A DNA stretch of 64,000 nt, from NCBI RefSeq assembly GCF_014905115.1, contig NZ_CP041235.1, forward strand, positions 930,001 to 994,000, in the 5' to 3' direction. Below, piece after piece: positions 21,620-43,254 of this stretch. The DNA comes from Sulfurimonas sediminis. Lineage in GTDB: Bacteria > Campylobacterota > Campylobacteria > Campylobacterales > Sulfurimonadaceae. Position numbers and translations under genes: made by a program. How positions within the stretch are numbered: the stretch's first letter is position 1; each line of letters starts with the position of its first letter. The notes under the pieces are model-generated. The model worked only from the letters and a program-made list of their open reading frames with translations. It did not search any database and was not told the origin of the DNA.

Positions 21620-21633
21620 TGAATGATTATTCA
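21620..21633. promoter_or_regulatory. TetR-type operator, hydA copy
   Basis: TGAATGATTATTCA: perfect 5-bp arms TGAAT/ATTCA with a 4-base spacer. It lies 21 bases before the hydA ATG, where a transcription start would be expected, so binding would repress. Three other copies with the same arms sit in the equivalent place upstream of other hydrogenase genes. Confidence 0.65.
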
Positions 21634-24671: not shown

Positions 24672-24682
24672 GGAGAACAATT

Positions 24683-25417
24683 ATGAAACCTAAATACAAA
24701 CAAGTCAAAAGGATGACGGCTTTTATGCGACTCAACCACTGGGTTGTCGCATTCAGCATGGTAGGTGCGGTGATAACCGGACTCTATATAGGGCATCCTT
24801 ATTATCAGACACTGATTGCTGAACCTGCTGTTATGAAGTATGTGATGGCATGGAACCGATGGGTGCATTTTATGATTGCAATCATATTTGATGTCAGCAG
24901 TATTGTCATCGCGTATCTTTATTTCTTTTCAAGATTTGAAAAGCCATATAAAAAGATAATTCCGACGGCAGGAAACATCAAGGAATTTTTTGAGGTAATC
25001 ATAAACCTTGTTATGTTGAACCGCCGTAAAAAGTTTGACTCTACCCATAGTGACAGTTTCAATACTGTTTTCTTTTTGCTGTTTCACTTAATGCTTGCAT
25101 GGATGCTTTTGACCGGACTGCAACTCTATGTACACGGGCTTGAATCCGGGTTGAGTTCTATCGGATCATGGTGGCCCTGGATGTTGCATTTGGTGACAGA
25201 CTGGACCCTGCCGGTTTCATCATGGATGATTGGTTCAACGGCAACGGGAACAAATATTATGGATGTGCGTATTGTGCATCATATGACTATGTGGTTTATC
25301 CTTTCCTGGGTGGCATTTCATATCTATTATCAGGTATGGCGTACCATATTTTGGAAAGAGGGAGACATCGGTATTGTTGTCAGCGGTACCAAATTTGTTA
25401 AAGAGAAAGAAGCATAG
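24683..25417 (+). CDS. hydC: Hydrogenase cytochrome b subunit HydC
   Basis: A 244-aa four-helix membrane protein of the NiFe-hydrogenase cytochrome b family. Haem-ligand histidines are visible in RLNHWVVAFS, RWVHFMIAI, LLFHLMLAWML and VHHMTMWFILSWVAFHIY. It oxidises the HydAB electrons and reduces menaquinone. The ATG at 24683 has AAGGAG (about 24670-24675) upstream. It is the last membrane partner of the hydABC operon, followed 41 bases later by hydE. Confidence 0.93.
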   Translation: MKPKYKQVKRMTAFMRLNHWVVAFSMVGAVITGLYIGHPYYQTLIAEPAVMKYVMAWNRWVHFMIAIIFDVSSIVIAYLYFFSRFEKPYKKIIPTAGNIKEFFEVIINLVMLNRRKKFDSTHSDSFNTVFFLLFHLMLAWMLLTGLQLYVHGLESGLSSIGSWWPWMLHLVTDWTLPVSSWMIGSTATGTNIMDVRIVHHMTMWFILSWVAFHIYYQVWRTIFWKEGDIGIVVSGTKFVKEKEA

Positions 25418-27384: not shown

Positions 27385-27391
27385 AAAAAAA

Positions 27392-29650
27392 ATGAAAGTC
27401 AGCGGTGTCGTTCAAGGTGTCGGTTTTAGACCCTTTATCTATACCCTGGCGAAAAAATACAAGCTATCTGGGTTTGTATTCAATGACGGCAGTGGTGTAG
27501 TGATTGAAGTAGAGGGAGAGAATGAAAATATCATCAACTTTATACAAAATATAGAAACTTCCCCACCGCCACTTAGCAGGATTGATGCTTGTAGCAGTGA
27601 AGCTATAGAACTAAAATTTGATGATGAGTTTGTTATTGTTAACTCTCAATACAATACTCCCCTTACTATGCTGAGTCCTGATATTGCAATGTGTGATGAG
27701 TGTAAACGCGAAATGTTTGACTCAAAAAACCGCCGTTACATGTATCCGTTTATAAACTGTATCAACTGTGGACCGAGATATACGATTGTTGAGCATCTTC
27801 CTTATGATAGAAAAAACACATCAATGAAAAGCTTTGAAATGTGTGATGAATGTAGGAAAGAGTATGAAGATCCGACAAATCGGCGTTATCATGCCCAGCC
27901 AATTTCATGCTATGCATGTGGACCAAAGATAGAACTTGTCTCTTTGATGGATGAATGTAGCGCAAAAGATGCGGAGGCAATAGAAAAAATTTGTGATTGC
28001 ATAAGAGAAGGAAAAACAGTTGCCGTAAAAGGCTTGGGTGGATTTCATCTTATATGTGATGCAACGAATGAAAAAGCTGTTATGTTGTTAAGAATTAACA
28101 AACACAGGCCAACTAAACCACTGGCTGTAATGTTTGAGACTATACAAGATATACAAAAGGTTTGTACTGTTTCAAAAAGAGAAAAAGAACTGCTTCTTTC
28201 AAAAGAGAGACCCATTGTTTTAGCAAAAAAGAAAAAGAATCAAAATCTTCTTTGTAAATATATTGCGCCAAATATCAATACAATAGGAGTTTTTCTACCT
28301 TATACTCCACTTCACGAGCTTATTTTAAAAAAGCTCAAAAGCCCCATTGTGGCTACGAGTGCAAATTTGAGTGATGAGCCGATTATCAAAGATCAAAGAG
28401 AGCTTTTTCAAAAGTTACCTCTTGTTGTAGGTGTTTCACTCAATCATAACCGAGATATAGTCAACGGATGCGATGACAGTGTGATGATGCATGTAGCAAA
28501 TCAAAATATGACACTGCGTTTGGCTAGAGGCTTTGCTCCACTTAGTTTTACCACAAAGATAAAAAAGAGTAAAAATATTTTGGCCCTGGGTGCACAACAA
28601 AAAAGTACTGTTACTTTAGCGTTTAACGGAAATATAGTGATGTCACCATATATTGGAGATCTAAATACAGTTGATTCTATGGAGTATTTTGAAAGAACTA
28701 TAGAGACTTTTCAAAGGTTTTATAATTTTAAAGCCGATGTAGTTGTATGTGACAAACATCCAAAGTATGAAACAACTAAATGGGCAAAAAAGTACATACA
28801 AAAAAATCCTCAATGTGAATTGATACAGGTACAACATCATTATGCTCATGCCCTCAGTACAATGGCAGAGTATAATCTTGATGAAGAGGTTTTGGCTTTT
28901 TGTTTTGATGGTACCGGTTATGGTGACGATGGAGTATTGTGGGGTGGTGAAGTGATTTTAGCGACAAACTACAACTACAGACGAGTATACCATTTAGAAG
29001 AGTTTTTATTGATAGGGGGTGAAAAAGCGATTAAAGAGCCTAGAAGAGTTGCTCTTTCGCTTTTGTTTGAGATTTTTTCTCTTGAAGAGATATACAGCAT
29101 GCAAAATGACTTTGTTGCATCATTTGAAAAACAGGAGATACAAACACTCTATCTGATGCGAAAAAGAGCAATAAATTCTGTCAAAACCACTTCAGTAGGC
29201 AGGCTTTTTGATGCGCTCTATGCTTTGAGTGGTTTTTTAGAACCCTTACAATATGAAGGAGAGAGTGGTATGGTTTTGGAGAGTCTCTCCTGTGAATTTC
29301 AGACAAAAAAGAAGTATAAATTTGAGTTAAAAAATGACTATATCAGTTGTAAAAATCTTATAAAAAGTGTTTTAAATGAAGAAAAAAAAGAGCTTATCGC
29401 TGGAAAATTTATAAATGCCTTGGCAGACATAATATTACAGATTAGTTTACAGTTTCCAAACAAAAGAGTAGTCTTAAGCGGAGGTGTATTTCAAAATGCT
29501 GACTTGCTAAAGAGAGTTATTGCAATGTTTGAGAAAAACAGTATTGCATATACTATAGCATCAAAAGTACCGGTCAATGACAGTGGCATATCACTAGGAC
29601 AGGCGTTTTACGCTCTCCATCAAAACAGTAGCAAGGATGATTATGAATAA
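27392..29650 (+). CDS. hypF: Carbamoyltransferase HypF
   Basis: HypF makes the thiocarbamate on HypE that becomes the cyanide ligands of the NiFe site. The 752-aa product has an acylphosphatase domain (GVVQGVGFRPF), a double zinc finger (CDECKREMF, CINCGPRYT, CDECRKEYEDP, CYACGP), a YrdC-like domain (KGLGGFHLICDA, RPTKPLAVMF) and a Kae1-like domain (QHHYAHALSTMAE, FCFDGTGYGDDG). ATG 27392 is chosen as it starts exactly at MKVSGVVQGVGF; a TTG at 27344 and ATG at 27356 would add residues outside the family. Its end overlaps the next gene. Confidence 0.95.
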   Translation: MKVSGVVQGVGFRPFIYTLAKKYKLSGFVFNDGSGVVIEVEGENENIINFIQNIETSPPPLSRIDACSSEAIELKFDDEFVIVNSQYNTPLTMLSPDIAMCDECKREMFDSKNRRYMYPFINCINCGPRYTIVEHLPYDRKNTSMKSFEMCDECRKEYEDPTNRRYHAQPISCYACGPKIELVSLMDECSAKDAEAIEKICDCIREGKTVAVKGLGGFHLICDATNEKAVMLLRINKHRPTKPLAVMFETIQDIQKVCTVSKREKELLLSKERPIVLAKKKKNQNLLCKYIAPNINTIGVFLPYTPLHELILKKLKSPIVATSANLSDEPIIKDQRELFQKLPLVVGVSLNHNRDIVNGCDDSVMMHVANQNMTLRLARGFAPLSFTTKIKKSKNILALGAQQKSTVTLAFNGNIVMSPYIGDLNTVDSMEYFERTIETFQRFYNFKADVVVCDKHPKYETTKWAKKYIQKNPQCELIQVQHHYAHALSTMAEYNLDEEVLAFCFDGTGYGDDGVLWGGEVILATNYNYRRVYHLEEFLLIGGEKAIKEPRRVALSLLFEIFSLEEIYSMQNDFVASFEKQEIQTLYLMRKRAINSVKTTSVGRLFDALYALSGFLEPLQYEGESGMVLESLSCEFQTKKKYKFELKNDYISCKNLIKSVLNEEKKELIAGKFINALADIILQISLQFPNKRVVLSGGVFQNADLLKRVIAMFEKNSIAYTIASKVPVNDSGISLGQAFYALHQNSSKDDYE

Positions 29651-30373: not shown

Positions 30374-30887
30374 AATTTTCAATAATAGCTTCCAATGAGA
30401 CAACTTGTTCATGTTTGCTTACTTGAATTCCCTCTTTTTGCAAGATAGTAATGACAGTATCAATATATGTAGCAAAAGTCTTCTGCATAGTCATACTTAA
30501 CCCTATACATACATCAATTTTTTGTGGCACTATACCGATGATACTCGATTTAGGAATCTCTTTTCCCATAAGTTCTAAAATATCAAAACACTGCAATACA
30601 CCTATTTCATGTGCTCCACCAGAATTTAGACCATATCCTGTAAGTTCATTTGACGGTATATGATAGATACTGCCGGGTTTGTCATCTATCTCAATGGCAT
30701 CAAGAATGATGATATGTTTATACTCCATAAAAAGATTTAAGAGATTTATGCCTTCAATACCGCCATTGACAATATCTGTCTGCGGAGAAAATGTGTAGTT
30801 TTTTTCCAGGTATTGTGAAGCATAGACAGCTACACCATCATCAAATTCTAAAATGTTTCCTACGCTCAGTAGTGCTAATTGTTTCAT
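30351..30887 (-). CDS. Hydrogenase maturation protease (canonical type)
   Basis: A 178-aa HyaD/HybD-family endopeptidase. All metal-ligand positions are filled: Asp in EFDDGVAVYA, Asp in IILDAIEIDD and His in GGAHEIGVLQC. It therefore is the likelier enzyme to trim the 20-residue extension of HydB. It lies on the opposite strand to hydABC, coupled (ATGA overlap) to a transposase-like gene and behind the nickel transporter genes. Confidence 0.85.
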   Translation of the reverse strand: MKQLALLSVGNILEFDDGVAVYASQYLEKNYTFSPQTDIVNGGIEGINLLNLFMEYKHIIILDAIEIDDKPGSIYHIPSNELTGYGLNSGGAHEIGVLQCFDILELMGKEIPKSSIIGIVPQKIDVCIGLSMTMQKTFATYIDTVITILQKEGIQVSKHEQVVSLEAIIENFKNPLNR

Positions 30888-31567
30888 GTCTGCTCTTTAA
30901 AATAGTTTTGTATGAGAAGTTTTAAAGCTTCTTCTTTTGAATAATTGAATTTAAACTCAAACTCTTTAAGGTAGTAGGCAAAATATTCGTTGGAAATCCC
31001 TTTGTATAAGGTAATATTTGCCTCAAAATACTCCCAGAATTTCACGATGGTATTGTAATATTTGGAGACTTTGATAATCCTGCTCTGACGCTTGAATTTG
31101 TTCAGCTCTTCTATATATACCTCTTCAATCTGATCTTGTAAAAACTGTGCTTTGTATTTGTGCAAAGAGGGCATTAAAATGGTGTAAATGTAGCCTTCAT
31201 AATCAAAAGTCAAAAAATTATAGGCATCAAAAAGTGCATTTTTTTGGCTTTTTTTTGATTTTTCTATATAGAAATACTCATCATACTCAACGCTTTTTTC
31301 TCTGATTTTTTCATAATGTTCTTCTGAAACAGCGGCACATAACAGACGAAAATTATGATAATAGTTTTTTGTTGAAATGTAGGAAATATGGTAAAGTTTA
31401 GAGGCTTCAAGGGCACTGATATTGCGAATAAAACACTCCATCAAAAAGAGTATTTTATTGACTCTCGCACGAGAATATTTTTTCTTGCAAGAGGAACATT
31501 TTAGGTTGTTTGTTGCTGTTTTGTAAACATAGTGTTTGCAATACAAACATTCTTGCTGCCAGATCAT
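30884..31567 (-). CDS. IS1595-like transposase-derived protein in the nickel operon
   Basis: A 227-aa protein resembling IS1595-type transposases: an N-terminal zinc ribbon (C7, C10 in CLYCKH and a CSSCKK pair), a helix-turn-helix-like segment (NISALEASKLYHISY) and the family's typical end KGISNEYFAYYLKEFEFKFNY. The middle part with the DDE acids is divergent, and no terminal inverted repeats are seen. AGGAGG precedes the ATG by 7 bases. It is co-oriented with cbiMNQO and overlaps the protease start, so it looks domesticated. A role as a DNA-binding regulator is only a guess. Confidence 0.6.
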   Translation of the reverse strand: MIWQQECLYCKHYVYKTATNNLKCSSCKKKYSRARVNKILFLMECFIRNISALEASKLYHISYISTKNYYHNFRLLCAAVSEEHYEKIREKSVEYDEYFYIEKSKKSQKNALFDAYNFLTFDYEGYIYTILMPSLHKYKAQFLQDQIEEVYIEELNKFKRQSRIIKVSKYYNTIVKFWEYFEANITLYKGISNEYFAYYLKEFEFKFNYSKEEALKLLIQNYFKEQT

Positions 31568-31585: not shown

Positions 31586-32341
31586 TTAAAAATGTAAATG
31601 ATAGTGAGAATGTGTAAAATCTTTTTTATGCCTGTGTTTGTGTTTGTGGATAAGATTTGCTTTTTGTAAAGTTTGTAAATCTTTAAAAAGTTTTTCAATA
31701 TCTCCGTCATATACCATTGTATGTTTTTCATCAAGCACAATAGCTCTGTTGCTCACTTCATAGGCTATACTCAAATCATGTGTTGCGACTATGACTGTTG
31801 TCTCTATTTCAAGCATTAAGTCTACAAACCAGCCGGTAGTTCTTGGATCCATCGCAGCTGTAGGCTCATCCAAAAGCAAAATTTCCGGTTCATAAATTAA
31901 AATGGAAGCAAGAACAACTTTTTGTTTTTCACCACCGCTGAGTTCAAGCGGGTTTTTATCTAAAAGATGTGCAATGCCGAACTTTTCACTTATTGCCAGT
32001 ACTTTTTTGTCAATGTTCTCTTCATCAAATTCACGCAAAGAAAAGGCTATTTCATCTTTTACGGTGGGATTGAAAATCATGCTTTCGGGATTTTGAAAAA
32101 GGATGCCTACTTTTTTTCGGAAGTTTTTGTCAATATTTTTTTTGCTAACCTTTTTTGTATGAAAAAGATACTCTCCTTTTTTTGGAAAATAGAGGGCGGC
32201 TAAAATTCTTAAAAGAGTTGATTTTCCGCTTCCATTACTGCCTAAAAGTACGACTTTTTCACCTTTGTTGATTGTGAGTGAAATGTCATGTAAGACTTTT
32301 TTTTCTTCATACGAAAACTCTATATTTTGCAGTGTTATCAA
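31586..32341 (-). CDS. cbiO: Nickel/cobalt ECF transporter ATPase CbiO/NikO
   Basis: A 251-aa ABC ATPase with Walker A GSNGSGKST, the Q loop LFQNPES, signature LSGGEKQKV, Walker B LLLDEPTAAMD and the H loop ATHDLSI. It energises CbiMNQ. The last 20 or so residues are His-rich (HKHKHRHKKDF, HSHYHLHF), a probable metal-binding tail. It overlaps cbiQ by four bases. Nickel rather than cobalt is inferred from the hydrogenase context. Confidence 0.9.
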   Translation of the reverse strand: MITLQNIEFSYEEKKVLHDISLTINKGEKVVLLGSNGSGKSTLLRILAALYFPKKGEYLFHTKKVSKKNIDKNFRKKVGILFQNPESMIFNPTVKDEIAFSLREFDEENIDKKVLAISEKFGIAHLLDKNPLELSGGEKQKVVLASILIYEPEILLLDEPTAAMDPRTTGWFVDLMLEIETTVIVATHDLSIAYEVSNRAIVLDEKHTMVYDGDIEKLFKDLQTLQKANLIHKHKHRHKKDFTHSHYHLHF

Positions 32342-32874
32342 AAAAATCCCCTTGCCTTCATCGCTAATGTTCTCTCTTTTGAATCTTTTAATGCTTTAGA
32401 GAAGAAAAATTCAAAGACTCTGAGAATGAACTTTTTTTCTCTTGAGTGGAGTTTTTTTATGACTCTTGCTTTGTATGCAAGTGTAAAATCTTCATAGGTT
32501 TTTTTATAAGAGATGATTTGAGAGAGTGTAATCATCAGTAAAAAACTTAAATCTTTGGAAAAAGCAAAAAATTCCACCATATTAATTTTGTGAAAAAAAT
32601 AAAATACAAAATATGTTATCGTAAAAACTTTAAGATTGATGTAAAAGATATAATGATAAGGGTCAATACCCTTGAGAGACGCAACAATAAAATACCCAAG
32701 AGAGACACTTAGATTAAAAAAGAGAAGCGACTTCACTGCTCTTTTAGTGATATAGAGTACTTGCTTATAAGAAAGAAGAAGTAAAACAGCTAAAAACAAA
32801 GCTGTAAAAACCATCTTTTTTAATGAAAGAATCAGTAAAAGAGAGGCAATAAAAAAGAGTCTATGCAGAACCAT
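32338..32874 (-). CDS. cbiQ: Nickel/cobalt ECF transporter permease CbiQ/NikQ
   Basis: A 178-aa integral membrane T-component with several transmembrane helices and the C-terminal basic motif region (YEDFTLAYKARVIKKL and SKERTLAMKARGFF), where the two AxARG-like coupling sites contact the ATPase. It is on the short side for CbiQ. ATG 32874 has AGGA five bases upstream and is preferred to a longer frame that overlaps cbiN by 65 bases. Confidence 0.8.
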   Translation of the reverse strand: MVLHRLFFIASLLLILSLKKMVFTALFLAVLLLLSYKQVLYITKRAVKSLLFFNLSVSLGYFIVASLKGIDPYHYIFYINLKVFTITYFVFYFFHKINMVEFFAFSKDLSFLLMITLSQIISYKKTYEDFTLAYKARVIKKLHSREKKFILRVFEFFFSKALKDSKERTLAMKARGFF

Positions 32875-33169
32875 GATTATCCTGTTTTTTGGCTGTGATT
32901 TTTGTAAAAATATAAAAAATCCCATAGACCAGAACCAAACCGAGCAGGGCAGAGAGATAGTAACTGACTACTTCATTCATTCCGTTTATGGAGTAATCAG
33001 GTAGAGGTGAGGAGAGGGTATGTGCATTTTTAATCCCAGTTGGTATAAAACCCAGAATTTTTTCATAATAATCCTCTTCCCATTCTCCCCATGCCGGATT
33101 TTCACTCAAAAGCCCAAGAGGGACCGCTACAATTAAAAGAGACAAGAGAAGATAAAGTTTATTTTTCAT
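32861..33169 (-). CDS. cbiN: CbiN/NikN-like component (PDGLE-type)
   Basis: A 102-aa protein with two membrane segments, one at each end, and a central extracytoplasmic loop containing LPDYSINGMNEVVSYYLSA, similar to PDGLE-domain N-components. It assists metal entry through CbiM. It overlaps cbiM by 11 bases and cbiQ by 14, the usual tight packing of cbiMNQO. Confidence 0.8.
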   Translation of the reverse strand: MKNKLYLLLSLLIVAVPLGLLSENPAWGEWEEDYYEKILGFIPTGIKNAHTLSSPLPDYSINGMNEVVSYYLSALLGLVLVYGIFYIFTKITAKKQDNHGSA

Positions 33170-33806
33170 AAGAGAGCTCCCTGTTTTTTCCTTTAAGATA
33201 GTTATAAATCAGTTGTGTAAATATTCCTTCAACCATTCCGAAAAAGAGCATATGAGAACCAACCAGTGCCACCATTGTTGTTTTTAAATCAAAAGGAAAG
33301 TAAAGCGGCTGTCCGTTATGTGTCCAAAACAATGGCTGTATGCCAAGGGCAACTGCCACAACAAAGGATGAACTGACAATACCCACCCAGCCTGCCAAAA
33401 ATGGTGCAAATTTTTTGTTCTTAAATATCTTAAAAACAAAATAGGCACCAAATGAGCCTGTCAGTGCCATAGAAAGAGCATTGAGTGCATATGCTGAAAT
33501 GCCTCCGTCGCCAAAGACTACAGCCTGTATAAGCAGTACCAAACTCACAGAAATGAAACCTACCCAGGGTCCAAATAGTATAGCAATAAGTGCAGCACCA
33601 ACTGCATGCCCGCTGGTTCCTCCCGGAACAGGAATGTTAAACATCATAATAATAAAACTCATTGCGCTTAAAGCTCCTATAAGAGGAAGTGTTTCTTCAT
33701 TCAGTTTTTCTTTGAGCTTTTTGAGTCCATAAATCCAAAGGGGCAGAGCAACAGCATAAGTCGCAATGACAGTTGTCGGAGATATATAGCCATCTGGTAT
33801 GTGCAT
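33159..33806 (-). CDS. cbiM: Nickel/cobalt ECF transporter substrate component CbiM/NikM
   Basis: A 215-aa membrane protein starting MHIPDGYIS, the hallmark of CbiM/NikM in which the free amino end, His2 and a later His bind the metal. The GTSGHAVGAAL block carries that His. It probably brings nickel for the three hydrogenases. GAGGA precedes the ATG. The gene is first of a minus-strand run through cbiO, the transposase-like gene and the protease. Confidence 0.92.
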   Translation of the reverse strand: MHIPDGYISPTTVIATYAVALPLWIYGLKKLKEKLNEETLPLIGALSAMSFIIMMFNIPVPGGTSGHAVGAALIAILFGPWVGFISVSLVLLIQAVVFGDGGISAYALNALSMALTGSFGAYFVFKIFKNKKFAPFLAGWVGIVSSSFVVAVALGIQPLFWTHNGQPLYFPFDLKTTMVALVGSHMLFFGMVEGIFTQLIYNYLKGKNRELSYEK

Positions 33807-34222
33807 TATTTTTCCTCATAAAATATTATCTCTAATTGTATAGATTTTAAATGATTTGCAGATAAAAAAGAGGAGTTCTTATGTAGTTTTGGAACCAAAA
33901 ATGAATATTTATTTAGAAATATCCCAAAACTATATAAGAAATAAGTAAATTTACCTTTTTTATACCGTTTTTATTGTTGGGTGCTGAATGGTTACTAAAA
34001 AATTTAATCTTTATCTCGTGACAAATAAGCATCTTTCACCTGTTAAAATTGAAGCAATCTGAAAGAGAAATTACCTTTAGAAAGTAAATTGTGTTTCTAA
34101 AAGTTTCATTTACTAAATAAATTATTACATCAGCAAAGTTAATTATAAATTTAAGAAATTTTAATGATATCATTCTAAATGAATATTCATTCGCCTATAT
34201 AAAGACTAATTATCGGAGTGAT
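33807..34222. promoter_or_regulatory. Divergent regulatory region of cbiM and the group 4 operon
   Basis: 416 AT-rich bases without a gene. Toward cbiM: a 9-bp inverted repeat TAGTTTTGG (33884-33892) with CCAAAACTA (33924-33932) encloses a weak operator TGAATATTTATTTA (33902-33915, one arm mismatch). The CCAAAACTATATAAGAAA block (33924-33941) matches those at 21540 and 39914. In the middle, TTTAGAAA and TTTCTAAA (34076-34083, 34094-34101) form an 8-bp stem. Toward the group 4 operon: the operator at 34180-34193. Confidence 0.6.
34180..34193. promoter_or_regulatory. TetR-type operator, group 4 hydrogenase copy
   Basis: TGAATATTCATTCG, one arm base from the TGAAT-N4-ATTCA consensus; it also contains the perfect 12-bp palindrome ATGAATATTCAT (34179-34190). 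It lies 29 bases before the first gene of the group 4 operon, the same place as the other copies. Confidence 0.6.
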
Positions 34223-34516
34223 ATGACAAAGATATTAAATGAAACATGTATCAGAATGTATTGTGAATCTGAGGGAAGATGTCATGGTATTGTGTTTGTC
34301 TTTTTTGATGAAACTCAAAAAGAAAATATTTTGCACAATGTAAATCTACTCGCACATAGACATAGAGTACATCCTGATGTCACTGTAAGTGTCAGGGAAA
34401 AATACGGAGAGGTTTTTATTGATTTTTATGATGAATATCACCATGAAGATCAATATTTTTTTGAGGATTTAGTTTCGGTACTTGGTGCTAAATTATGTGA
34501 TTGTGAGGACTTATAA
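34223..34516 (+). CDS. Unknown Cys/His-rich small protein leading the group 4 operon
   Basis: A 97-aa protein I do not recognise. The N-terminus has three Cys in CIRMYCESEGRCHG; the middle and C-terminal parts have many His and acidic residues (AHRHRVHPD, YDEYHHEDQYFFED) and a final CDCED. It could bind a metal or cluster. GGAG lies upstream of the ATG, and the stop overlaps the small-subunit start by one base, so it is translated with the hydrogenase and is probably part of its assembly or complex (inference). Confidence 0.75.
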   Translation: MTKILNETCIRMYCESEGRCHGIVFVFFDETQKENILHNVNLLAHRHRVHPDVTVSVREKYGEVFIDFYDEYHHEDQYFFEDLVSVLGAKLCDCEDL

Positions 34517-35397
34517 TGAGTAAAGAAGTTGTTCCTAAATTATTTAGAGTAAATACAGGAAGTTGTAATGGTTGTGATGTGGAGTTTGTTGCAACTGCGT
34601 TTGTAGATAAATTTGAGCTTGAGAGTTTAGGGGTTGAGCTTGTTGAGCATATAAATGAAGCAAATGTATTGGTTGTTACTGGACCATTAACTGCAAGAAG
34701 TGAACCATTTTTAAAGAAATATGTTGCTCAAATGAGAAAGCCATACGCTGTTGTTGGTATAGGTACTTGTTCTGTTACAAGTGGGATTTTTAGAGATTCT
34801 TATGCTATTGAAGGTCCTACAGATAAAATCGTAGATGTTGATATCAATGTTGCTGGATGTCCTCCTCGACCTGAATCTATCGCCGAAGGAGTTGCTAAAG
34901 GCATTAAGGTGCTTCAACAAAAGTTGAATGGGGAGGCTACTCCTAAAACACTCGATATGATATTTTCTGACTTTACAGCTCCAGCTTCATTTAGAGGTAA
35001 AATTGATTTAAATGAAGATATGTGTACTGCATGTAGAACTTGCGAAACTGTTTGTCCTTCAGGGGCTATTGAGATATCAGCTGTTGAGGGTGGATTTATT
35101 CATAAGGTTTGGCATAACTCATGTTGTTTTTGTGGAAATTGTGCTTACTTTTGTCCTACTGGTGCTATTTTTAATACAAATAGTTTTGACACTGCAAAAA
35201 CACAAGATGAAAAATATAGTGAAGTAAATGTAGGGCATATAAATTATGAGACTTGTAGCTGCTGTGGTGAAAATTATATGCCACCATCGCGTGGATTACT
35301 AGGGAAAGCTTATGTTCATGATGATGTCAGCAAGTTGAATGATGCAATTTGTCCGGCGTGTAGAAAAGAAGCAAATTTTAAAAGGATGTATGGATGA
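34516..35397 (+). CDS. Group 4-related [NiFe] hydrogenase small subunit fused to 2x[4Fe-4S] ferredoxin
   Basis: A 293-aa cytoplasmic subunit. Residues 1-140 are NuoB/CooL-like with proximal-cluster ligands C17, C20 (CNGCDVEF), C85 and C115. A two-cluster ferredoxin domain follows (C170-173-176-180 and C203-206-209-213), corresponding to separate CooX-like proteins in other enzymes. The last part has a further paired set C247/C249/C250 and C279/C282 that could bind zinc or a cluster. Unlike the two uptake enzymes, the proximal motif keeps CxxC. It overlaps the NuoC-like gene by four bases. Confidence 0.85.
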   Translation: MSKEVVPKLFRVNTGSCNGCDVEFVATAFVDKFELESLGVELVEHINEANVLVVTGPLTARSEPFLKKYVAQMRKPYAVVGIGTCSVTSGIFRDSYAIEGPTDKIVDVDINVAGCPPRPESIAEGVAKGIKVLQQKLNGEATPKTLDMIFSDFTAPASFRGKIDLNEDMCTACRTCETVCPSGAIEISAVEGGFIHKVWHNSCCFCGNCAYFCPTGAIFNTNSFDTAKTQDEKYSEVNVGHINYETCSCCGENYMPPSRGLLGKAYVHDDVSKLNDAICPACRKEANFKRMYG

Positions 35398-35900
35398 ATA
35401 TAGAAGAGTTTAATAATGCAATAAAAAATAATATAGTGTCGCAGTATACATTGCATGATGATGTTGATAGTTATGGAAATCCTAACAGCTGGATTAAGTT
35501 GACAAACAAAAATGATATTGAAGCGATTGCAAAAAGTGTAAGTGCCTATAAAGGAAGATGTGTTGTTATGTCTGTTTATAGAAATGAAGATGGTTCTCAT
35601 ATGCTGATATATCATTTTGATATTGATGGGATGCTTATTAATGTTGAAGTCCCTCTTGCAAGTGATGATAAAAATTTCATATCTATTACACCAATTTTAC
35701 CGAGTGCCAACTGGGCTGAGAGAGAAGCACGAGAGATGTATAATCTTGAACCTGTAGGTCATCCATGTAAAGATAGACTTTTTCTAGACCCTTCTATGCC
35801 AAAAGGAGAAATGGCTGAATATATTTCTCTCTCAAAAGCACAAGTGGGATTGAGCGACACAGATATATTATGGAATAAAGTAAATGAGGGGATTAAGTAA
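35394..35900 (+). CDS. NuoC/HycE-N-like hydrogenase subunit
   Basis: A 168-aa protein ending with the 30-kDa-subunit signature SANWAEREAREMYNLEPVGHP followed by RLFLDP, as in NuoC and in CooU/EchD of group 4 hydrogenases. It helps join small and large subunits in the peripheral arm. In this window it is a separate gene, not fused to the large subunit. It overlaps the large-subunit start by one base. Confidence 0.82.
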   Translation: MNIEEFNNAIKNNIVSQYTLHDDVDSYGNPNSWIKLTNKNDIEAIAKSVSAYKGRCVVMSVYRNEDGSHMLIYHFDIDGMLINVEVPLASDDKNFISITPILPSANWAEREAREMYNLEPVGHPCKDRLFLDPSMPKGEMAEYISLSKAQVGLSDTDILWNKVNEGIK

Positions 35901-36991
35901 TGAGTGAAAAGATAGCAATAGGTCCATTTAATCCAGAATTAGAAGAGTCTGTATATTTCAAACTAAAAGCAGATGAAAATAGAATAGTAACCGATGTTGA
36001 AATAATAAATGGTTTTATTCATAGAGGAATGGAAGGTCTTGTAACAAAGAAAAACTTTATGCAAAATCTTATTTTAACAGAGAGAGTCTGTTCTTTGTGT
36101 TCAAACAATCATCCATTTACATATGCTATGGCTGTGGAAAAAATTTCAGGCATTAAAATTCCTCTTCGTGCTGAAGCACTGCGAGTAGTTGCTGATGAAG
36201 TAAAAAGAGTTGCATCAGATATGTTTAACTTGGCAATGCTTACACATCTCGCACATACACATGACCTGATGAAAGAGACGATGAATATTCGCGAGCATAT
36301 GCAAGATTTAAAAGAGGTTATTTGGGGTAACAGAATGGATATGAGTGTTAATATTCTCACTGGTACCAAATATGATCTTGACGAAGGAAAGATAGAGATA
36401 ATTTTAGAGAAACTAAAAATTGTTGAATCACAAGTAAGAGCCCTGCAAGAGAAATATGAAAACTCTGAGGCATTTAAAGAGAAGACGATTGGTGTTGGTG
36501 TTTTACCAAAAGAGGACGCACTGAGTATAGGTGTAACAGGTCCGGTGGCAAGAGGAAGCGGGATAAATAATGATGTTAGAGTCATTGCTCCTTACTCTCT
36601 TTATGCAATACGCCCAGAGATTCGTCCAAATGTTACTCTTAGAACAGAGGGTGATGTGTATGCAAGAGCTATGGTTCGTTTTGGTGACATTTTAGAGGCT
36701 ATTCGCATCATAAAAGATGTCGTTGCTGATTTACCTGAAGGTCCTACATACTTAGAAAAGAGACCGCATATTCCTGCTGGTGAAGCAGTTGTAAGAACGG
36801 AAGCTCCTCGTGGAGAACTTATATATTATCTTAAAACAGATGGTTCTCAAAAACCAGAGAGAATGCGATGGAAAGTACCAACTTTTACAAACTGGGAAGC
36901 CCTAAAAGTTATGATTTTAGGGGATAAGGTCGATAATGTAACGATGATTCTTAATAGTATTGATCCATGTATTTCATGTACAGAAAGATAG
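35900..36991 (+). CDS. Group 4-related [NiFe] hydrogenase large subunit
   Basis: A 363-aa NuoD-like catalytic subunit that retains the nickel ligands: RVCSLCSNNH (C64, C67) and DPCISCTER (C357, C360). NuoD of complex I lacks these, so this is a hydrogenase. The chain ends at the Arg of the C-terminal motif, so there is no peptide to cleave, as recalled for CooH-type subunits. No proton-pumping membrane subunits (HyfB/C, CooM/K-like) are in the window, so the enzyme may be soluble or its membrane part lies elsewhere. Confidence 0.87.
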   Translation: MSEKIAIGPFNPELEESVYFKLKADENRIVTDVEIINGFIHRGMEGLVTKKNFMQNLILTERVCSLCSNNHPFTYAMAVEKISGIKIPLRAEALRVVADEVKRVASDMFNLAMLTHLAHTHDLMKETMNIREHMQDLKEVIWGNRMDMSVNILTGTKYDLDEGKIEIILEKLKIVESQVRALQEKYENSEAFKEKTIGVGVLPKEDALSIGVTGPVARGSGINNDVRVIAPYSLYAIRPEIRPNVTLRTEGDVYARAMVRFGDILEAIRIIKDVVADLPEGPTYLEKRPHIPAGEAVVRTEAPRGELIYYLKTDGSQKPERMRWKVPTFTNWEALKVMILGDKVDNVTMILNSIDPCISCTER

Positions 36992-37004
36992 AGGGAAGTA
37001 GGTT

Positions 37005-37508
37005 ATGAGAAATAATAGATTTATATATGCTGATCCAGATAAATGTATAGGGTGTATTAACTGTGAACTTGCTTGTAGTGCAAGTCATATGGATCTTGAT
37101 ATTGATACGGTTTATGCAATGGCAGCAAGGGGTGAGACAATCGCACCTTCAAGAAATAAAGTTTTAACTCTAAATGGAAAAACTGCACCGATGCAGTGTA
37201 TGCAATGTCCTGATGCACCATGTCTTGAAGGGTGTCCTGTAGATATTATTAAATTTGAAGATGACTTTGTAAAGTATTACGAAAGTGACTGTATTGGGTG
37301 TCAAAGTTGTGATATGGTTTGTCCATATGGTGCTGTTGTTATGGCAGCAAATATAAAAAAAGATGCTCCTGTTAGTCAAATGGTTGCACTTACTTGTGAT
37401 TTGTGTGGCGGAGAAAATGGTAAGCAGGCATGTGTAAATATCTGTCCTACAGATGCAATTGCTCTAATAGATTATGAAGAGTTTGCAGTTATACAGAATA
37501 GAAGATAA
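37005..37508 (+). CDS. Polyferredoxin (HycB/CooF-like, up to four [4Fe-4S])
   Basis: A 167-aa electron-transfer protein with four Cys groups: DKCIGCINCELACS, MQCMQCPDAPCLEGCP, SDCIGCQSCDMVCPYG and LTCDLCGG..ACVNICP. This is the HycB/CooF/DmsB-type layout. It likely connects the hydrogenase small subunit to the GltD-like flavoprotein encoded two genes downstream. The 13-base gap and shared strand make it part of the same operon. Confidence 0.87.
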   Translation: MRNNRFIYADPDKCIGCINCELACSASHMDLDIDTVYAMAARGETIAPSRNKVLTLNGKTAPMQCMQCPDAPCLEGCPVDIIKFEDDFVKYYESDCIGCQSCDMVCPYGAVVMAANIKKDAPVSQMVALTCDLCGGENGKQACVNICPTDAIALIDYEEFAVIQNRR

Positions 37509-37514
37509 GCAAGT

Positions 37515-37853
37515 ATGCACGAATACAGTATTGTTCAGTCAATGTTAGATCTTTGTGAGAAACATTCAAAAGGGCAAGAAGTTGCAAAAGTTGCTGTAAA
37601 GATAGGAAAGATGAGTGGAATAGAACCTCACTTTCTTAAAGAGAGCTTTGAAGTTTTCAAAGAGGGGACAGTTTGCCAGGATGCTACTATGGATATGCAG
37701 ATTATCGAGATTACCATTGAGTGTCAAAAGTGTAAAAAGGTTGCAGTTGTAGATAGTTTTAATTTTTATTGTCCCTATTGTCAAGGGGGCGATACAAAAG
37801 TGCTTACTGGACAAGAGATGCATATTGATTATATAGAATTAAAGGAGGTGTGA
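37515..37853 (+). CDS. hypA: Hydrogenase nickel incorporation protein HypA (copy 1)
   Basis: A 112-aa HypA. The N-terminal MHEYS provides the nickel-binding His2 and Glu3, and the zinc site is C73/C76 with C90/C93 (CQKCKK, CPYCQG). It delivers nickel with HypB. A second copy lies at 47990-48331; this one is in the group 4 operon and may be dedicated to that enzyme. Confidence 0.93.
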   Translation: MHEYSIVQSMLDLCEKHSKGQEVAKVAVKIGKMSGIEPHFLKESFEVFKEGTVCQDATMDMQIIEITIECQKCKKVAVVDSFNFYCPYCQGGDTKVLTGQEMHIDYIELKEV

Positions 37854-37856
37854 CCG

Positions 37857-39287
37857 ATGGAAAGAAAAAAACAGTATTTGAAGATTAAAAAAGAGATACC
37901 AAAGAAAAGAGAAGCACAAGAGAGAAAGATGGATTTTCATCCAACATATCATCTGTTTTCTCATAAAGAGGCTGATGCACAGTCAGAGAGATGTATCAAG
38001 TGTCCAATTGACCTACTCAAAGATATGAGTGGAGAATTTAGTTTTTGTCGTACAGGTTGTCCGTTGGAAAATAAAATTCCTATTTGGATAGAAAAAGTAA
38101 AACAGAATGATATAAAAGGGGCATTTGAAGCAAGTAATGAAACTTCTCCTTTTCCTGAAATTCTTGGTATGGTGTGTCCTCATGATGTGTTGTGTCAGGG
38201 AGGTTGTACAATCTCTAAAACTGAATCAGGGAGTGTTACTATCGGTGCTATTGAAGTTTATCTGAATGAAGAGGCTTTTAAAATGGGACTGAAGCCTGAT
38301 TATGGGACAAATGCAGTAAAATCTGGTAAAAAAGTAGCGATTATAGGAAGTGGACCTGCTGGGATGAGTTGTGCTACATTTTTGCTTCGTGGTGGCGTAA
38401 GTGTTGATATGTTTGAAAAATCAGACCGCCCAGGTGGACTCTTGACATATGGTATTCCAAATTTTAAAATTAAGAAAGATGTCATTTTAAGAAGATTTCG
38501 ATGGATGCAAGAGGCAGGAATGAATCTGCATCTCAATACAGATATAGAGACACCAGAACAGATGAAGCAACTTATAGATGAGTATGATGCAATTTTTGTT
38601 GGTCTTGGAGCACCAAATAGTCGTGGTGCAAGAATGAAAAATGAAGATGCTCATGGTGTTTATCATGTTATGGATATTTTACGCCATGCACAAAAAATGG
38701 TTTTTGAAGACTTTTATGAAAATATTTTAAAAGACAAGCGTGTAGTTGTTATCGGTGGAGGTGACTCTGCTATGGATGCGGTGAGAACTTCAGTAAGAAT
38801 GAAAGCAAAATCTGTGACATGTGCCTATAGACGAGATCAGGCAAATATGCCAGGGAGTGCAAAAGAGGTTATAAATGCACAAGAAGAGGGTGTAATATTT
38901 GAGTTTTATACGGCACCAAAAGAAGTTGTAGTAGATGAAGGTCGCCATGTAAAAGGGGTGATTTGTCAAAGAACAGCATTGGGCGAACCAGGTGAAGATG
39001 GAAGACGCCGTTTGGAAGTTGTAGAAGATAGTGACTTTGTTATTGATTGTGATGTTATTATATTGGCATTAGGTTTTGATAACTATGAATTTCCATGGTA
39101 TGATGATGCAGAGATAAATACCGGAAAATGGGGTGATATTATTGTTGATGAAAATAAAAGAACCTCAAACAAAAGAATTTATGCAGGTGGAGATGCCGTT
39201 CGTGGCGCTGATTTAGCAGTTACTGCTGCTGCAGATGGACGAGAGGCAGCACTCTCTATATTAAGAGATTTTGGAATTTCACTATAG
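37857..39287 (+). CDS. GltD-like FAD/NAD(P)-dependent flavoprotein
   Basis: A 476-aa protein of the glutamate synthase small-subunit family. The N-terminal iron-sulfur part has CIKCP, CRTGCP and CPHDVLCQGGC. Two dinucleotide motifs follow: GSGPAGMSCA for FAD and GGGDSAMDAV for NAD(P), and the final GGDAVRGADLAV. AAAGGAGGTG is a very strong ribosome site. No GltB-like large subunit is nearby, so the protein probably exchanges electrons between the hydrogenase ferredoxins and NAD(P)H instead of making glutamate (inference from position). Confidence 0.85.
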   Translation: MERKKQYLKIKKEIPKKREAQERKMDFHPTYHLFSHKEADAQSERCIKCPIDLLKDMSGEFSFCRTGCPLENKIPIWIEKVKQNDIKGAFEASNETSPFPEILGMVCPHDVLCQGGCTISKTESGSVTIGAIEVYLNEEAFKMGLKPDYGTNAVKSGKKVAIIGSGPAGMSCATFLLRGGVSVDMFEKSDRPGGLLTYGIPNFKIKKDVILRRFRWMQEAGMNLHLNTDIETPEQMKQLIDEYDAIFVGLGAPNSRGARMKNEDAHGVYHVMDILRHAQKMVFEDFYENILKDKRVVVIGGGDSAMDAVRTSVRMKAKSVTCAYRRDQANMPGSAKEVINAQEEGVIFEFYTAPKEVVVDEGRHVKGVICQRTALGEPGEDGRRRLEVVEDSDFVIDCDVIILALGFDNYEFPWYDDAEINTGKWGDIIVDENKRTSNKRIYAGGDAVRGADLAVTAAADGREAALSILRDFGISL

Positions 39288-39301: not shown

Positions 39302-39886
39302 ATGAAAAAGGTTTTAAAAAAAAATCAGATTATAATGTTTGCTTTAAAACTTTTTTCAAAAAAAGGTTTTTATAACACGAAAATATCTGATATTTCCAAA
39401 GATATAGGGATGAGTGTTGGTCATTTTTATAACTATTTTCCATCAAAGAAAAGTTTGGCAAAAGATTCTATCCGTTATGTTACATCACAACTTGCAGAAA
39501 ATCTAAGAGAGATAAATGCTCAAGAGATTTCACAAAAAGAGAAAATCTATGCATTTGTGAAGGGATATTTTGCTTTTATATCGGAATATCCAGAGATGAT
39601 AGAGTACTTTTTTCGTGTTTATTTATCCAACAGAGAACTCTTTTGTGATGAGGAAGATTGTGGATTTTCTTTAGCAAAAGAGTTCATAGATGAAATTGAG
39701 ACACTTATAAATGTTGGTGTTGCAAAGGGTGAATTTAAAGAGAAAAATTTCTATGTAACTTTTGCTTTTATCACAGGAACGCTTGGTGCTATTACTTTTT
39801 TAAGCGGTGAAGATGTTTTAGAAAATGATTTAAGCATTTATATCGACGAGGTTTCAAACTCTATATATAATGCTTTAGTGTGTTAA
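39302..39886 (+). CDS. TetR-family regulator 2 (hydrogenase-linked)
   Basis: A 194-aa TetR regulator paralogous to the one at 18774-19370. The helix-turn-helix has KISDISKDIGMSVGHFYNYFPSKK and the ligand domain YPEMIEYFFRVYLSNRELF followed by CDEEDCGF, again two Cys just after the shared motif. It is the last gene of the group 4 operon, 14 bases after the flavoprotein. It is one of the two candidates for binding TGAAT-N4-ATTCA, including in its own promoter. Confidence 0.88.
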   Translation: MKKVLKKNQIIMFALKLFSKKGFYNTKISDISKDIGMSVGHFYNYFPSKKSLAKDSIRYVTSQLAENLREINAQEISQKEKIYAFVKGYFAFISEYPEMIEYFFRVYLSNRELFCDEEDCGFSLAKEFIDEIETLINVGVAKGEFKEKNFYVTFAFITGTLGAITFLSGEDVLENDLSIYIDEVSNSIYNALVC

Positions 39887-39971: not shown

Positions 39972-39983
39972 ATATTCTACAAT

Positions 39984-39997
39984 TGAATAAATATTCA
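39984..39997. promoter_or_regulatory. TetR-type operator, hypB copy
   Basis: TGAATAAATATTCA, perfect TGAAT/ATTCA arms with a 4-base spacer. It starts 12 bases downstream of the -10 and 30 bases before the hypB ATG. Confidence 0.65.
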
Positions 39998-40027
39998 CTT
40001 AGAATTTATTATATAAGGAAGATAAAT

Positions 40028-40822
40028 ATGTGTGCAGATTGCGGATGTAGTATAACAGGAACAAATTTAGGAGATGGACACCATCATCATCATCATCATC
40101 ACGAAAATGGGCACAGTCATGAACACCAAGCAGCTCATGAAACACTGCATCACAATCCACAGCTTAACGATGCAAAAACAATCAGTGTAATTACAAAAAT
40201 TTTAGACAAAAATAATCATGAAGCAGCACATAACCGTGCTCATTTTGAAAAACATAATGTTTTAAGTATTAATCTTATGAGTTCTCCCGGAAGTGGAAAA
40301 ACAACACTTTTAGAAAATATGGCAGAGATGGCTAAGTTTAAATTTGGTGTTGTTGAGGGAGATTTAGAGACGAGTCGTGATGCTGAAAGAATTAAGGCAA
40401 AAGGTATTCCTGCATACCAAATTCAAACGGGAAGTGCTTGTCATTTAGATGCTTTTATGGTGCATAAAGGTTTGCATGAAATGCCGCTTGAAGAGATTGA
40501 TGTCTGTTTTATAGAGAATGTTGGAAATCTTGTCTGTCCAGCCTCTTATGATGTAGGTGCACATTTAAATATAGTTTTGGTTTCTATTCCTGAGGGGAGT
40601 GATAAAATAGAAAAATACCCAGTTATGTTTCGTCAGGCTGATTTAATTTTAATTACCAAAACAGATTTAATAGAATATTTTGATTATGATTTGGAACATG
40701 AAAAACAAGAAGCACGAAAAATTAAGCCAGGTGTAGATATTTTAGAAGTAAATATCAAAGATAAAGCTTCTATTCAAAGAGTTATTGATTGGATAGAATT
40801 CAAAAGAACAATGAGAGGCTAA
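40028..40822 (+). CDS. hypB: Hydrogenase maturation GTPase HypB
   Basis: A 264-aa GTPase that delivers nickel. It opens with the high-affinity metal motif CADCGCS and a His run (eight consecutive His at about 19-26, then more His) that can store nickel. The P-loop SSPGSGKTTLLE, DLETSRDAERI and TKTDLI complete the G domain. The ATG at 40028 starts at MCADCGC; an upstream frame from 39983 overlaps the operator and is rejected. AAGGAAG precedes the ATG. First gene of hypBCDE. Confidence 0.95.
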   Translation: MCADCGCSITGTNLGDGHHHHHHHHENGHSHEHQAAHETLHHNPQLNDAKTISVITKILDKNNHEAAHNRAHFEKHNVLSINLMSSPGSGKTTLLENMAEMAKFKFGVVEGDLETSRDAERIKAKGIPAYQIQTGSACHLDAFMVHKGLHEMPLEEIDVCFIENVGNLVCPASYDVGAHLNIVLVSIPEGSDKIEKYPVMFRQADLILITKTDLIEYFDYDLEHEKQEARKIKPGVDILEVNIKDKASIQRVIDWIEFKRTMRG

Positions 40823-40823
40823 T

Positions 40824-41114
40824 ATGTGTTTGTCAATTCCAAGTAAAGTTGTAAAAATAGATAAAGAGCGAAATGTTGCTGTAGTTGATACTATGGGTGT
40901 TACAAGAGAAGCAGGGCTTGATCTGATGCAAGAAGACGAGGTGAAAATAGGGGACTATGTTTTGTTGCATATAGGTTTTGTAATGAATAAAATAGATGAA
41001 GAGGATGCGTTAGAATCTTTAAAAGTATATAATGAAATTTTAGAAAAGCTTGATGAAGAAGAGAGGCGGCAACTGGTACAAGAGGATGATAACTGTCCAA
41101 ATAGAGGTGCATAA
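40824..41114 (+). CDS. hypC: HypC/HybG-family maturation chaperone
   Basis: A 96-aa chaperone that begins MCLSIPSKVV; Cys2 binds the Fe(CN)2CO unit while shuttling between HypD and the large subunit. It has the usual DVKIGDYVLLHIGFVMNKIDEEDA core. Only one hypC is seen here for three hydrogenases. Confidence 0.94.
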   Translation: MCLSIPSKVVKIDKERNVAVVDTMGVTREAGLDLMQEDEVKIGDYVLLHIGFVMNKIDEEDALESLKVYNEILEKLDEEERRQLVQEDDNCPNRGA

Positions 41115-42259
41115 TGGCTGAGTTGCAATTAAAGGATTTGTATGATGGCTTTCGTAATCCTGAAGTGATTCAAGGTTTTGCAAAGCTTATCAATGAAGAA
41201 GCAAAAAAGCTTTCTCGTCCGATTAATATTATGGAAGTTTGTGGTGGACATACACACTCTATTATGAAGTTTGGACTGCCACAACTTCTACCGGAAAATA
41301 TTAATTTTATTCATGGTCCTGGGTGTCCTGTATGTATTATGCCAAAAGAGAGAATTGATCATGCTTACATCTTAGCAGAGCTTGATGATACGATTTTGGT
41401 TACACTTGGGGATATGATAAAAGTACCGGGAAGTCATGGAAGTTTGCAAGATGCAAGAGCAAAAGGTGCGGATGTGCGTTTTGTTTACTCACCGCTTGAT
41501 ACACTCAAAATTGCTCAAGAAAATCCAGATAAAAAAGTCATCTTCTTTGCCATCGGCTTTGAAACTACAACACCTATGACAACTTCACTTATAGACATTG
41601 TTATAAAAAAAGAGATAAAAAACATTTTCTTTCATATCAATCATGTCACGGTTCCTGAGGTGATGGTCGAGCTTATAGACAGCAGAGATGAACATGTAGA
41701 TAGTTACAACAATAGAATTGATGCCTTTTTGGGACCTTCACATGTAAGCGTTATAACGGGAAGTAAAATTTATGAAAAATTTCCAAAAGAGTATAATCGA
41801 CCTGTGGTTGTTGCAGGGTTTGAACCTGTAGATATTATGGAAGCTATTTTAATGATACTGAGACAATTTAACGAAGGGCGATGTGAACTTGAAGTTGAGT
41901 ACAAGCGTCTTGTATCGTATGATGGGAATACTATAGCACAGGCACTTATAGAAAAATATTTTGAAAAAGCTTCTTTGTTTAAATGGCGTGGACTTGGCAA
42001 TGTACCTAAAAGCGGATATAAACTCAAAGAGGAGTTTGCTTTTTTGGATGCTGAACATATATATTCGGATATTTTACCAAAAGAGGAGATAGAAGACCAT
42101 AAACTTTGTATCTGTGGTGATATATTGCGTGGTATGGCAAAACCAAATGAATGTACTATTTTTGGTACAGCCTGTAAACCGCAAACACCGCTTGGAAGTT
42201 GTATGGTTAGTAGTGAAGGTGCTTGTGCAGCATATTATAAATATGGAAATTTATTATGA
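41114..42259 (+). CDS. hypD: Hydrogenase maturation protein HypD
   Basis: A 381-aa iron-sulfur scaffold on which the Fe(CN)2CO centre is built. It has MEVCGGHTHSIMKFG, HGPGCPVCIMP, FAIGFETTTPMT and the C-terminal cluster-binding Cys set (CICGDILRG, CTIFGTACKPQTPLGSCMVS). One-base overlap with hypC and four-base overlap with hypE show strong coupling. Confidence 0.96.
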   Translation: MAELQLKDLYDGFRNPEVIQGFAKLINEEAKKLSRPINIMEVCGGHTHSIMKFGLPQLLPENINFIHGPGCPVCIMPKERIDHAYILAELDDTILVTLGDMIKVPGSHGSLQDARAKGADVRFVYSPLDTLKIAQENPDKKVIFFAIGFETTTPMTTSLIDIVIKKEIKNIFFHINHVTVPEVMVELIDSRDEHVDSYNNRIDAFLGPSHVSVITGSKIYEKFPKEYNRPVVVAGFEPVDIMEAILMILRQFNEGRCELEVEYKRLVSYDGNTIAQALIEKYFEKASLFKWRGLGNVPKSGYKLKEEFAFLDAEHIYSDILPKEEIEDHKLCICGDILRGMAKPNECTIFGTACKPQTPLGSCMVSSEGACAAYYKYGNLL

Positions 42260-43254
42260 ATAAACAGATAACTCTGGCTATGGGCAATGGTGGTGAAGAA
42301 AATAACGAGCTAATCTCTAAAATTTTTTATAAAGCATTTAAAAATGAGATACTTGAAAAAAGTGAAGATGCCGCAGTAATACATGGTGGAGAACTCGCTT
42401 TTTCAACTGACAGTTTTACGGTAAGCCCTCTCTTCTTTGAAGGGGCAGATATAGGAAAGCTGGCTATATGCGGTACATGTAATGATCTTGCTATGATGGG
42501 TGCAAAGCCAAAATATCTTACATGTAGTGTGATCATAGAGGAGGGGTTTTCTACTCGTGAGCTTGAAAAAATTGTGCGTAGTATGAAAAAAGAGCTTGAA
42601 ATTAACGGTGCTATTGTTGTAAGTGGTGATACAAAAGTTGTGCCTCGTGGAAGTGTGGATAAAATTTTTATCAATACAACAGGTATAGGAACTATTATAA
42701 AAAAAGGGATAAGTTCTAACAATATTTCAACAGATGATGTCATACTTGTTTCAAGAGATATAGGCAGACACGGAGCGACTATTTTTGCAGCAAGAGAGGG
42801 AATAGAACTCTCAAGTACATTAGAGAGTGATTGTGCATCACTGATAGAGCAAGTAGAGGCTCTACTTGAAGCAGATGTTTGTGTGACCGCAATGCGAGAT
42901 GCAACACGGGGTGGTGTGAGTGCTGTACTTAATGAGTGGGCAAAACAGTCTGATATCTGTATAGAGGTAGAAGAAGAGAGTATTCCTGTCTCTCAAGAGG
43001 TGTATGGTATATGTGAGATGTTGGGCTTTGAAGCATTGAATCTTGCAAATGAAGGTACTTTCGTTTTGGCAGTAAAAAAAGAGGATGCACAAAAAGCACT
43101 TGAAATACTGCATAGTTTTGAAAACTCCAAAAATGCTGTGAAAATTGCCAATGTAAGTCAACAATATAAACAAAAAGTAATACTGCTCAGTTCATATGGA
43201 ACGAAAAGATTTTTGGATGCACCTACAGGAGAACTGTTACCTCGTATTTGTTAA
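42256..43254 (+). CDS. hypE: Hydrogenase expression/formation protein HypE
   Basis: A 332-aa PurM-like enzyme that dehydrates the thiocarbamoyl group at its own C-terminal Cys to make cyanide. The protein ends PRIC, the required C-terminal cysteine. It also has FSTDSFTVSPLFFEGADIG and RDATRGGVSAVLNEWA. Last gene of hypBCDE. Confidence 0.96.
   Translation: MNKQITLAMGNGGEENNELISKIFYKAFKNEILEKSEDAAVIHGGELAFSTDSFTVSPLFFEGADIGKLAICGTCNDLAMMGAKPKYLTCSVIIEEGFSTRELEKIVRSMKKELEINGAIVVSGDTKVVPRGSVDKIFINTTGIGTIIKKGISSNNISTDDVILVSRDIGRHGATIFAAREGIELSSTLESDCASLIEQVEALLEADVCVTAMRDATRGGVSAVLNEWAKQSDICIEVEEESIPVSQEVYGICEMLGFEALNLANEGTFVLAVKKEDAQKALEILHSFENSKNAVKIANVSQQYKQKVILLSSYGTKRFLDAPTGELLPRIC

Follow-up and report, generated by a model that had tools for sequence, protein, structure and literature searches.

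A 64,000-nucleotide (nt) window of the Sulfurimonas sediminis genome (positions 930001 to 994000 of a complete, single-contig sequence of 2.32 Mb) carries one tight operon on the forward strand (34223 to 39287), which encodes a [NiFe]-hydrogenase derived from the Coo membrane complex but lacking the ion-pumping arm. We consider it probable that the enzyme is a soluble cytoplasmic H2:NADP+ oxidoreductase (NADP, nicotinamide adenine dinucleotide phosphate) that descends from the group 4c Coo complex, without its arm but still with an NADP(H) module of its own, the dedicated flavoprotein GltD; the enzyme is possibly also linked to ferredoxin. In textbooks, group 4 enzymes connect hydrogenases with complex I, and the membrane arm is their characteristic feature.

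The genes run in the order orf97, CooL-CooX fusion, CooU/NuoC, CooH, polyferredoxin, HypA, GltD, and TetR, with intergenic gaps of −4 to +14 bp, the gap between GltD and TetR included. Pfam and NCBIfam matches support every named part except orf97. The hydrogenase small subunit (34516 to 35397, +) joins a NuoB-like CooL (Oxidored_q6) to CooX, a two-cluster ferredoxin (4Fe-4S dicluster). On the same strand follow the CooU/NuoC-like subunit (35394 to 35900; Complex1_30kDa, PF00329, E = 2.8e-14), the CooH-type [NiFe] large subunit (35900 to 36991; Complex1_49kDa/NiFeSe), a HycB/HydN-like polyferredoxin of the AegA-N/HydN/HycB type (37005 to 37508), the nickel insertion protein HypA (37515 to 37853; PF01155, E = 2.5e-29), and the hydrogenase-linked GltD (37857 to 39287). 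All genes named in a first-pass annotation of this DNA were found in order and in frame; orf97 and the TetR gene belong to the cluster as well, beyond those it had named.

That annotation had called the hydrogenase group 4 related, and a large-subunit tree with Hyf/Hyc, Ech, Mbh, NuoD, and Coo references narrowed the claim. CooH grouped with Carboxydothermus CooH and other arm-bearing Coo loci (support, 100/99), which rules out an Ech or Hyf identity; by descent, the protein is a CO-induced-type (group 4c) hydrogenase. It has both CxxC nickel motifs of a [NiFe]-hydrogenase with their ligands intact (RVCSLC and DPCISCTER), and HypA is encoded in the operon and HypB next to it. CooH terminates at the second nickel motif, as CooH relatives and MbhL do, and therefore has no C-terminal tail for cleavage. 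No match to TIGR01702, the CO dehydrogenase catalytic subunit CooS, was found in the genome.

The pump subunits were sought genome-wide with profile searches. CooK was found neither in the operon nor elsewhere in the genome, and the only match to the NuoH family (NADHdh; C1:1941008) lies within complex I. CooM is missing from the operon, and no antiporter-type gene lies near it. The seven antiporter-type matches in the genome comprise three complex I subunits, three genes of an Mrp-like cluster that lacks NuoH, and one DabB-like gene (C1:443645), with the Mrp-like and DabB-like labels assigned by inspecting translations.

Additionally, the small subunit appears to have lost the docking surface of its membrane-bound relatives. 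CooL of arm-bearing loci has three near-invariant motifs, [RK]SP[WF], PRYDxERLG, and SPKHAD, which all 11 arm-bearing loci have and none of the 34 armless loci has. CooX of arm-bearing loci starts with a segment like FLKIAIRNLLKGPTTDPYPFG, and this segment is missing from armless loci. Seventy-two CooL columns do not vary among arm-bearing sequences. The ones that fewer than half of the armless sequences retain cluster at residues 6 to 7, 24 to 39, and 44 to 57 of the window's protein, with a few farther along, and the cluster-ligand stretch CNGCDVE is retained. MbhJ and NuoB from solved structures also contain the loop motifs, HycG contains them in part, and the complex I NuoB of the same genome retains them (SRFDFDRYG...SPRQAD). 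In complex I, these loops sit at the junction with NuoH.

The second half of the argument concerns GltD. The operon copy retains the cluster cysteines, the flavin adenine dinucleotide (FAD) site, and the YRRD dinucleotide motif common to gltB-linked copies (alignment and Pfam), the features of a GltD-type NADP(H) flavoprotein, and its nearest solved relative, closer than NfnL, is a small chain of an NADPH-dependent glutamate synthase. It has no genetic link to GltB of the kind that marks a glutamate synthase small subunit, and a separate gltB-gltD pair is found at C1:1308945-1312347. We sampled 397 Campylobacterota genomes for CooH relatives (E ≤ 1e-70). There were 24 such genomes, none of them among the 20 same-genus genomes listed, and all 24 carry GltD directly downstream of HypA. 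These hydrogenase-linked GltDs form one clade (100/100), separate from gltB-adjacent GltDs, and have a longer first cluster loop, CxxC-x14/15-CxxxC, a spacing absent in gltB-linked copies. Among 21 Nautiliaceae genomes, GltD was present in 7 of 7 with CooH and in 1 of 14 without it, that single copy adjoining gltB; at least 11 genomes have gltB without gltD. Some of the 21 genomes are incomplete, and in the 12 with a completeness of 90% or more, GltD and CooH match without exception. In this family, then, GltD tracks CooH and not GltB. Taken together, the clade, its private cysteine spacing, the separate gltB-gltD pair, and the tracking of CooH indicate that this GltD clade is dedicated to the hydrogenase.

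Two side observations concern glutamate synthase. Most CooH-less Nautiliaceae have gltB without gltD, and the glutamate synthase there may use another donor, perhaps ferredoxin. In one complete-looking genome with gltB (G225, locus L100), the hydrogenase-linked GltD is the sole full-length GltD of the family and may serve both enzymes.

The polyferredoxin is nearest to HycB-type subunits, which are electron carriers between a partner enzyme and a hydrogenase. Together with GltD, it matches E. coli AegA end to end, the polyferredoxin corresponding to the N-terminal part and GltD to the C-terminal part. Because both are one protein in AegA, the polyferredoxin and GltD are likely to touch. AegA and YgfT of E. 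coli differ from the S. sediminis pair in being one fused protein encoded outside a hydrogenase operon, and their function is unsettled (PMC8097209).

Because the docking motifs are lost, no arm is present in the genome, and GltD is tied to the hydrogenase, we regard a soluble NADP(H)-linked enzyme as the best reading. The NiFe site in CooH would split H2. The electrons would then pass from the CooL cluster, through the ferredoxin domain that CooX forms in the fusion, to the polyferredoxin and from there, via the 4Fe-4S clusters and FAD of GltD, to NADP+. In the reverse direction, H2 would be released from NADPH, and the clusters of CooX or of the polyferredoxin may also be where electrons are exchanged with ferredoxin. 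The subunit set, the cofactor ligands, the absence of a membrane partner from the genome, the decay of the docking motifs, and the linkage of the GltD clade are read from the sequence; from these we infer complex formation, the electron path, NADP rather than NAD as the acceptor, the direction, and solubility. A role for the hydrogenase in the reductive tricarboxylic acid (TCA) cycle would be reasonable. The first-pass annotation had noted that no pump subunit was present and had linked the flavoprotein to the hydrogenase, and the first statement now holds genome-wide, and the second is supported across the CooH-bearing genomes of the phylum. It had further proposed a soluble enzyme that exchanges electrons between H2, ferredoxin, and NAD(P)H, perhaps by bifurcation; the soluble NADP(H)-linked enzyme stands as the best reading, and bifurcation is unsupported.

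Several points weigh against this assignment. The preference for NADP over NAD would follow from similarity, and the interface role of the CooL loops is suggested by motif comparison together with general knowledge of complex I. The definitions of the docking motifs were made post hoc, and the 34 armless loci represent at most three independent lineages. CooH-bearing Nautiliaceae and G225 have no other GltD, and the operon GltD could also serve GltB there. Finally, we found no biochemistry of the armless form in the literature.

Without a pump, electron transfer from H2 to ferredoxin would be unaided unless the flavin bifurcates. In a flavin-based bifurcating hydrogenase, H2 oxidation would reduce NADP+ and ferredoxin jointly (or the reverse), with the FAD of GltD as the branch point, as in NfnL of the transhydrogenase NfnSL. 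NfnL is a GltD homologue (2e-77), the several ferredoxin-type domains could provide the low-potential branch, and the loss of the pump takes away the usual means of pushing electrons to ferredoxin. However, GltD is nearer to glutamate synthase small chains, which do not bifurcate, than to NfnL, and nothing in the sequence shows that the flavin bifurcates. The operon also lacks the NfnS-type partner of NfnSL, in a search that covered the operon and not the remaining genome, and Nfn in turn has no hydrogenase. We therefore think it unlikely that this is a bifurcating, group 4-derived soluble [NiFe]-hydrogenase, in which a GltD-type flavin would couple NADP+ reduction to the formation of low-potential ferredoxin from H2. 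If it were, flavin-based coupling would have taken over from chemiosmotic coupling within one enzyme lineage.

GltD could instead be a glutamate synthase small subunit that happens to be located in the operon, with the hydrogenase using ferredoxin alone. The protein is a GltD homologue, in seven genomes with CooH, six of them Nautiliaceae and the seventh G225, it is the sole full-length GltD of the family beside a gltB, and GAmH_1024 of Nautilia profundicola, near the coo genes 1032 to 1026, is listed as glutamate synthase (PMC2628731). However, the separate gltB-gltD pair of S. sediminis, the distinct clade and cluster spacing, and the Nautiliaceae pattern, with its genomes that have gltB and no gltD, disfavor this explanation, and we consider it improbable. 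We give equally little credence to a main role in H2 release rather than uptake, as a safety valve for surplus NADPH or reduced ferredoxin. Coo enzymes evolve H2, and the NADPH couple, at about −370 mV (PMC8097209), is near the H2 couple, so that the H2 level would set the direction. Direction is not readable from the sequence, but the window also holds uptake hydrogenase genes, which suggest that H2 serves as an electron donor. It is very improbable that the hydrogenase remains membrane docked, either on the NuoH arm that belongs to complex I or on some unrecognized partner: the genome does have NuoH and antiporter subunits, but the docking motifs kept by NuoB are lost here and the N-terminal segment of CooX is missing.

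How the soluble NADP(H)-linked enzyme may have arisen can be read from its relatives. The INTERMEDIATE form, with CooM and CooK as well as the polyferredoxin, HypA, and GltD, occurs at six Nautiliaceae loci (L067 to L071 and L090). Our first reading, from 25 loci, was that GltD and the membrane arm exclude each other; it was rejected because Nautiliaceae carry both. Arm-bearing Coo loci outside the Campylobacterota (L027, L030, L031, L035, and L037) had no GltD in the DNA examined, and one pattern-based scan, of a kind that favors close relatives, found no GltD-linked form outside the phylum. The simplest order is that GltD was gained on an armed enzyme and the arm was lost afterwards. In a concatenated tree, the Sulfurospirillum clade is basal, the window's clade lies beside the Nautiliaceae, and the armless Nautiliaceae genome G004 (locus L072) groups with its armed relatives. 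A single armless clade was marginally rejected in the approximately unbiased (AU) test when L072 was included (P = 0.047) and was not rejected without it (P = 0.16). More than one loss of the arm is likely. The armless operons are under strong purifying selection, with a nonsynonymous-to-synonymous rate ratio (dN/dS) of about 0.02 to 0.1 in most comparisons. One phylum holds three forms of this enzyme family, armed, armed with the NADP module (Nautiliaceae), and armless with the NADP module, and the outgroups are armed only. The matching loss of docking motifs lets the fate of an energy-converting enzyme after removal of its pump be tested.

Several known systems resemble the operon in part. 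The CO-induced CooMKLXUH complex (group 4c, Carboxydothermus type) shares CooL, CooX, CooU, CooH, and a polyferredoxin with it; unlike that complex, S. sediminis has no CooM, CooK, CO dehydrogenase, or docking motifs, its CooL and CooX are fused, and GltD is added. The armed Nautiliaceae Coo enzymes (Hyd-3 of Nautilia strain PV-1 and cooMKLXUHF of N. profundicola) share the downstream polyferredoxin, HypA, and GltD but retain CooM, CooK, and the docking motifs. For the PV-1 homologue, an NADPH-producing role has been proposed from coexpression (PMC10092268). The Ech-like cluster of Sulfurospirillum multivorans is also armless and CooH type, and its genus carries the same GltD, but large-subunit identity is about 54%, CooL and CooX are usually separate, and orf97 is absent. 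Its lack of membrane genes has been called remarkable, with no mention of GltD (PMC5357620), and its subunits were of low abundance in proteomics (PMC6242987). A CooLUHF cluster has been listed for a vent Sulfurimonas (PMC7952632). Parts of the picture were thus known before, namely, the missing membrane genes in Sulfurospirillum (PMC5357620) and the NADPH role for the armed Nautilia enzyme (PMC10092268), and with CooH relatives in 24 of 397 genomes, the case is less isolated than the first-pass annotation assumed. In literature of incomplete coverage, we found no paper that brings together an armless enzyme, its GltD partner, the lost docking motifs, and the way GltD follows the hydrogenase from genome to genome. 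The function of CooLH in N. profundicola has been described as enigmatic, and genes for the usual NAD(P)H routes were missing there (PMC2628731). The S. sediminis operon offers a candidate H2-to-NADPH route in Campylobacterota that use the reductive TCA cycle, the gap stated for N. profundicola in 2009 (PMC2628731). A PntB transhydrogenase was not found in the S. sediminis genome.

The operon may also be part of a regulon. A perfect palindrome, AATGAATATTCATT (34178 to 34191), a probable TetR operator by inference, ends 31 nt ahead of the first ATG. Exact or one-mismatch copies lie upstream of the same operon at five other loci (L014, L021, L063, L065, and L066), and in L066 the copy is flanked by the operon on one side and a divergently oriented TetR gene on the other. 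Six matches were observed in the window, against 1.4 expected; copies with zero to two mismatches stand at 21622 (before hydA), at 33900 and 34178 (in the interval between the metal uptake genes and the coo operon), and at 39986 (before hypB). The last gene of the tight cluster (39302 to 39886, +; PF00440) begins 14 bp after GltD and encodes a TetR-family regulator. From this arrangement, it is reasonable to propose that TetR controls a hydrogenase regulon. The window holds two TetR paralogues (18774 to 19370 and 39302 to 39886), which are 49% identical, and each is beside one of two hydrogenase clusters.

The first gene of the operon, orf97 (34223 to 34516, +), encodes a small protein of 97 amino acids (aa), and most members of the window's clade keep it ahead of the CooL-CooX fusion. 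Its predicted model is alpha/beta (predicted local distance difference test score [pLDDT], 79). Neither Pfam nor a fold comparison (E ≤ 1e-3) gave a match, and we claim no function for it. Downstream of the TetR gene are the maturation genes hypB, hypC, hypD, and hypE (39983 to 43254, +), HypB being identified by Pfam and the other three by reading translations; hypB probably starts at 40028. Divergent from the operon lie CbiM-type genes for putative nickel/cobalt uptake (31586 to 33806, −; CbiM, PDGLE, and an ABC ATPase by Pfam). Between these and a hydrogenase protease, a 227-aa protein is encoded that has no Pfam match (30884 to 31567, −). The large subunit of a second hydrogenase, 433 aa long (20231 to 21532), terminates at its last CxxC motif and adjoins a typical uptake hydrogenase (21655 to 25417). 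Finally, a HypF-like protein (25459 to 27384), in which a HypF zinc finger is accompanied by a weakly matching Kae1-like region, directly precedes a full-length HypF-like gene (27344 to 29650).

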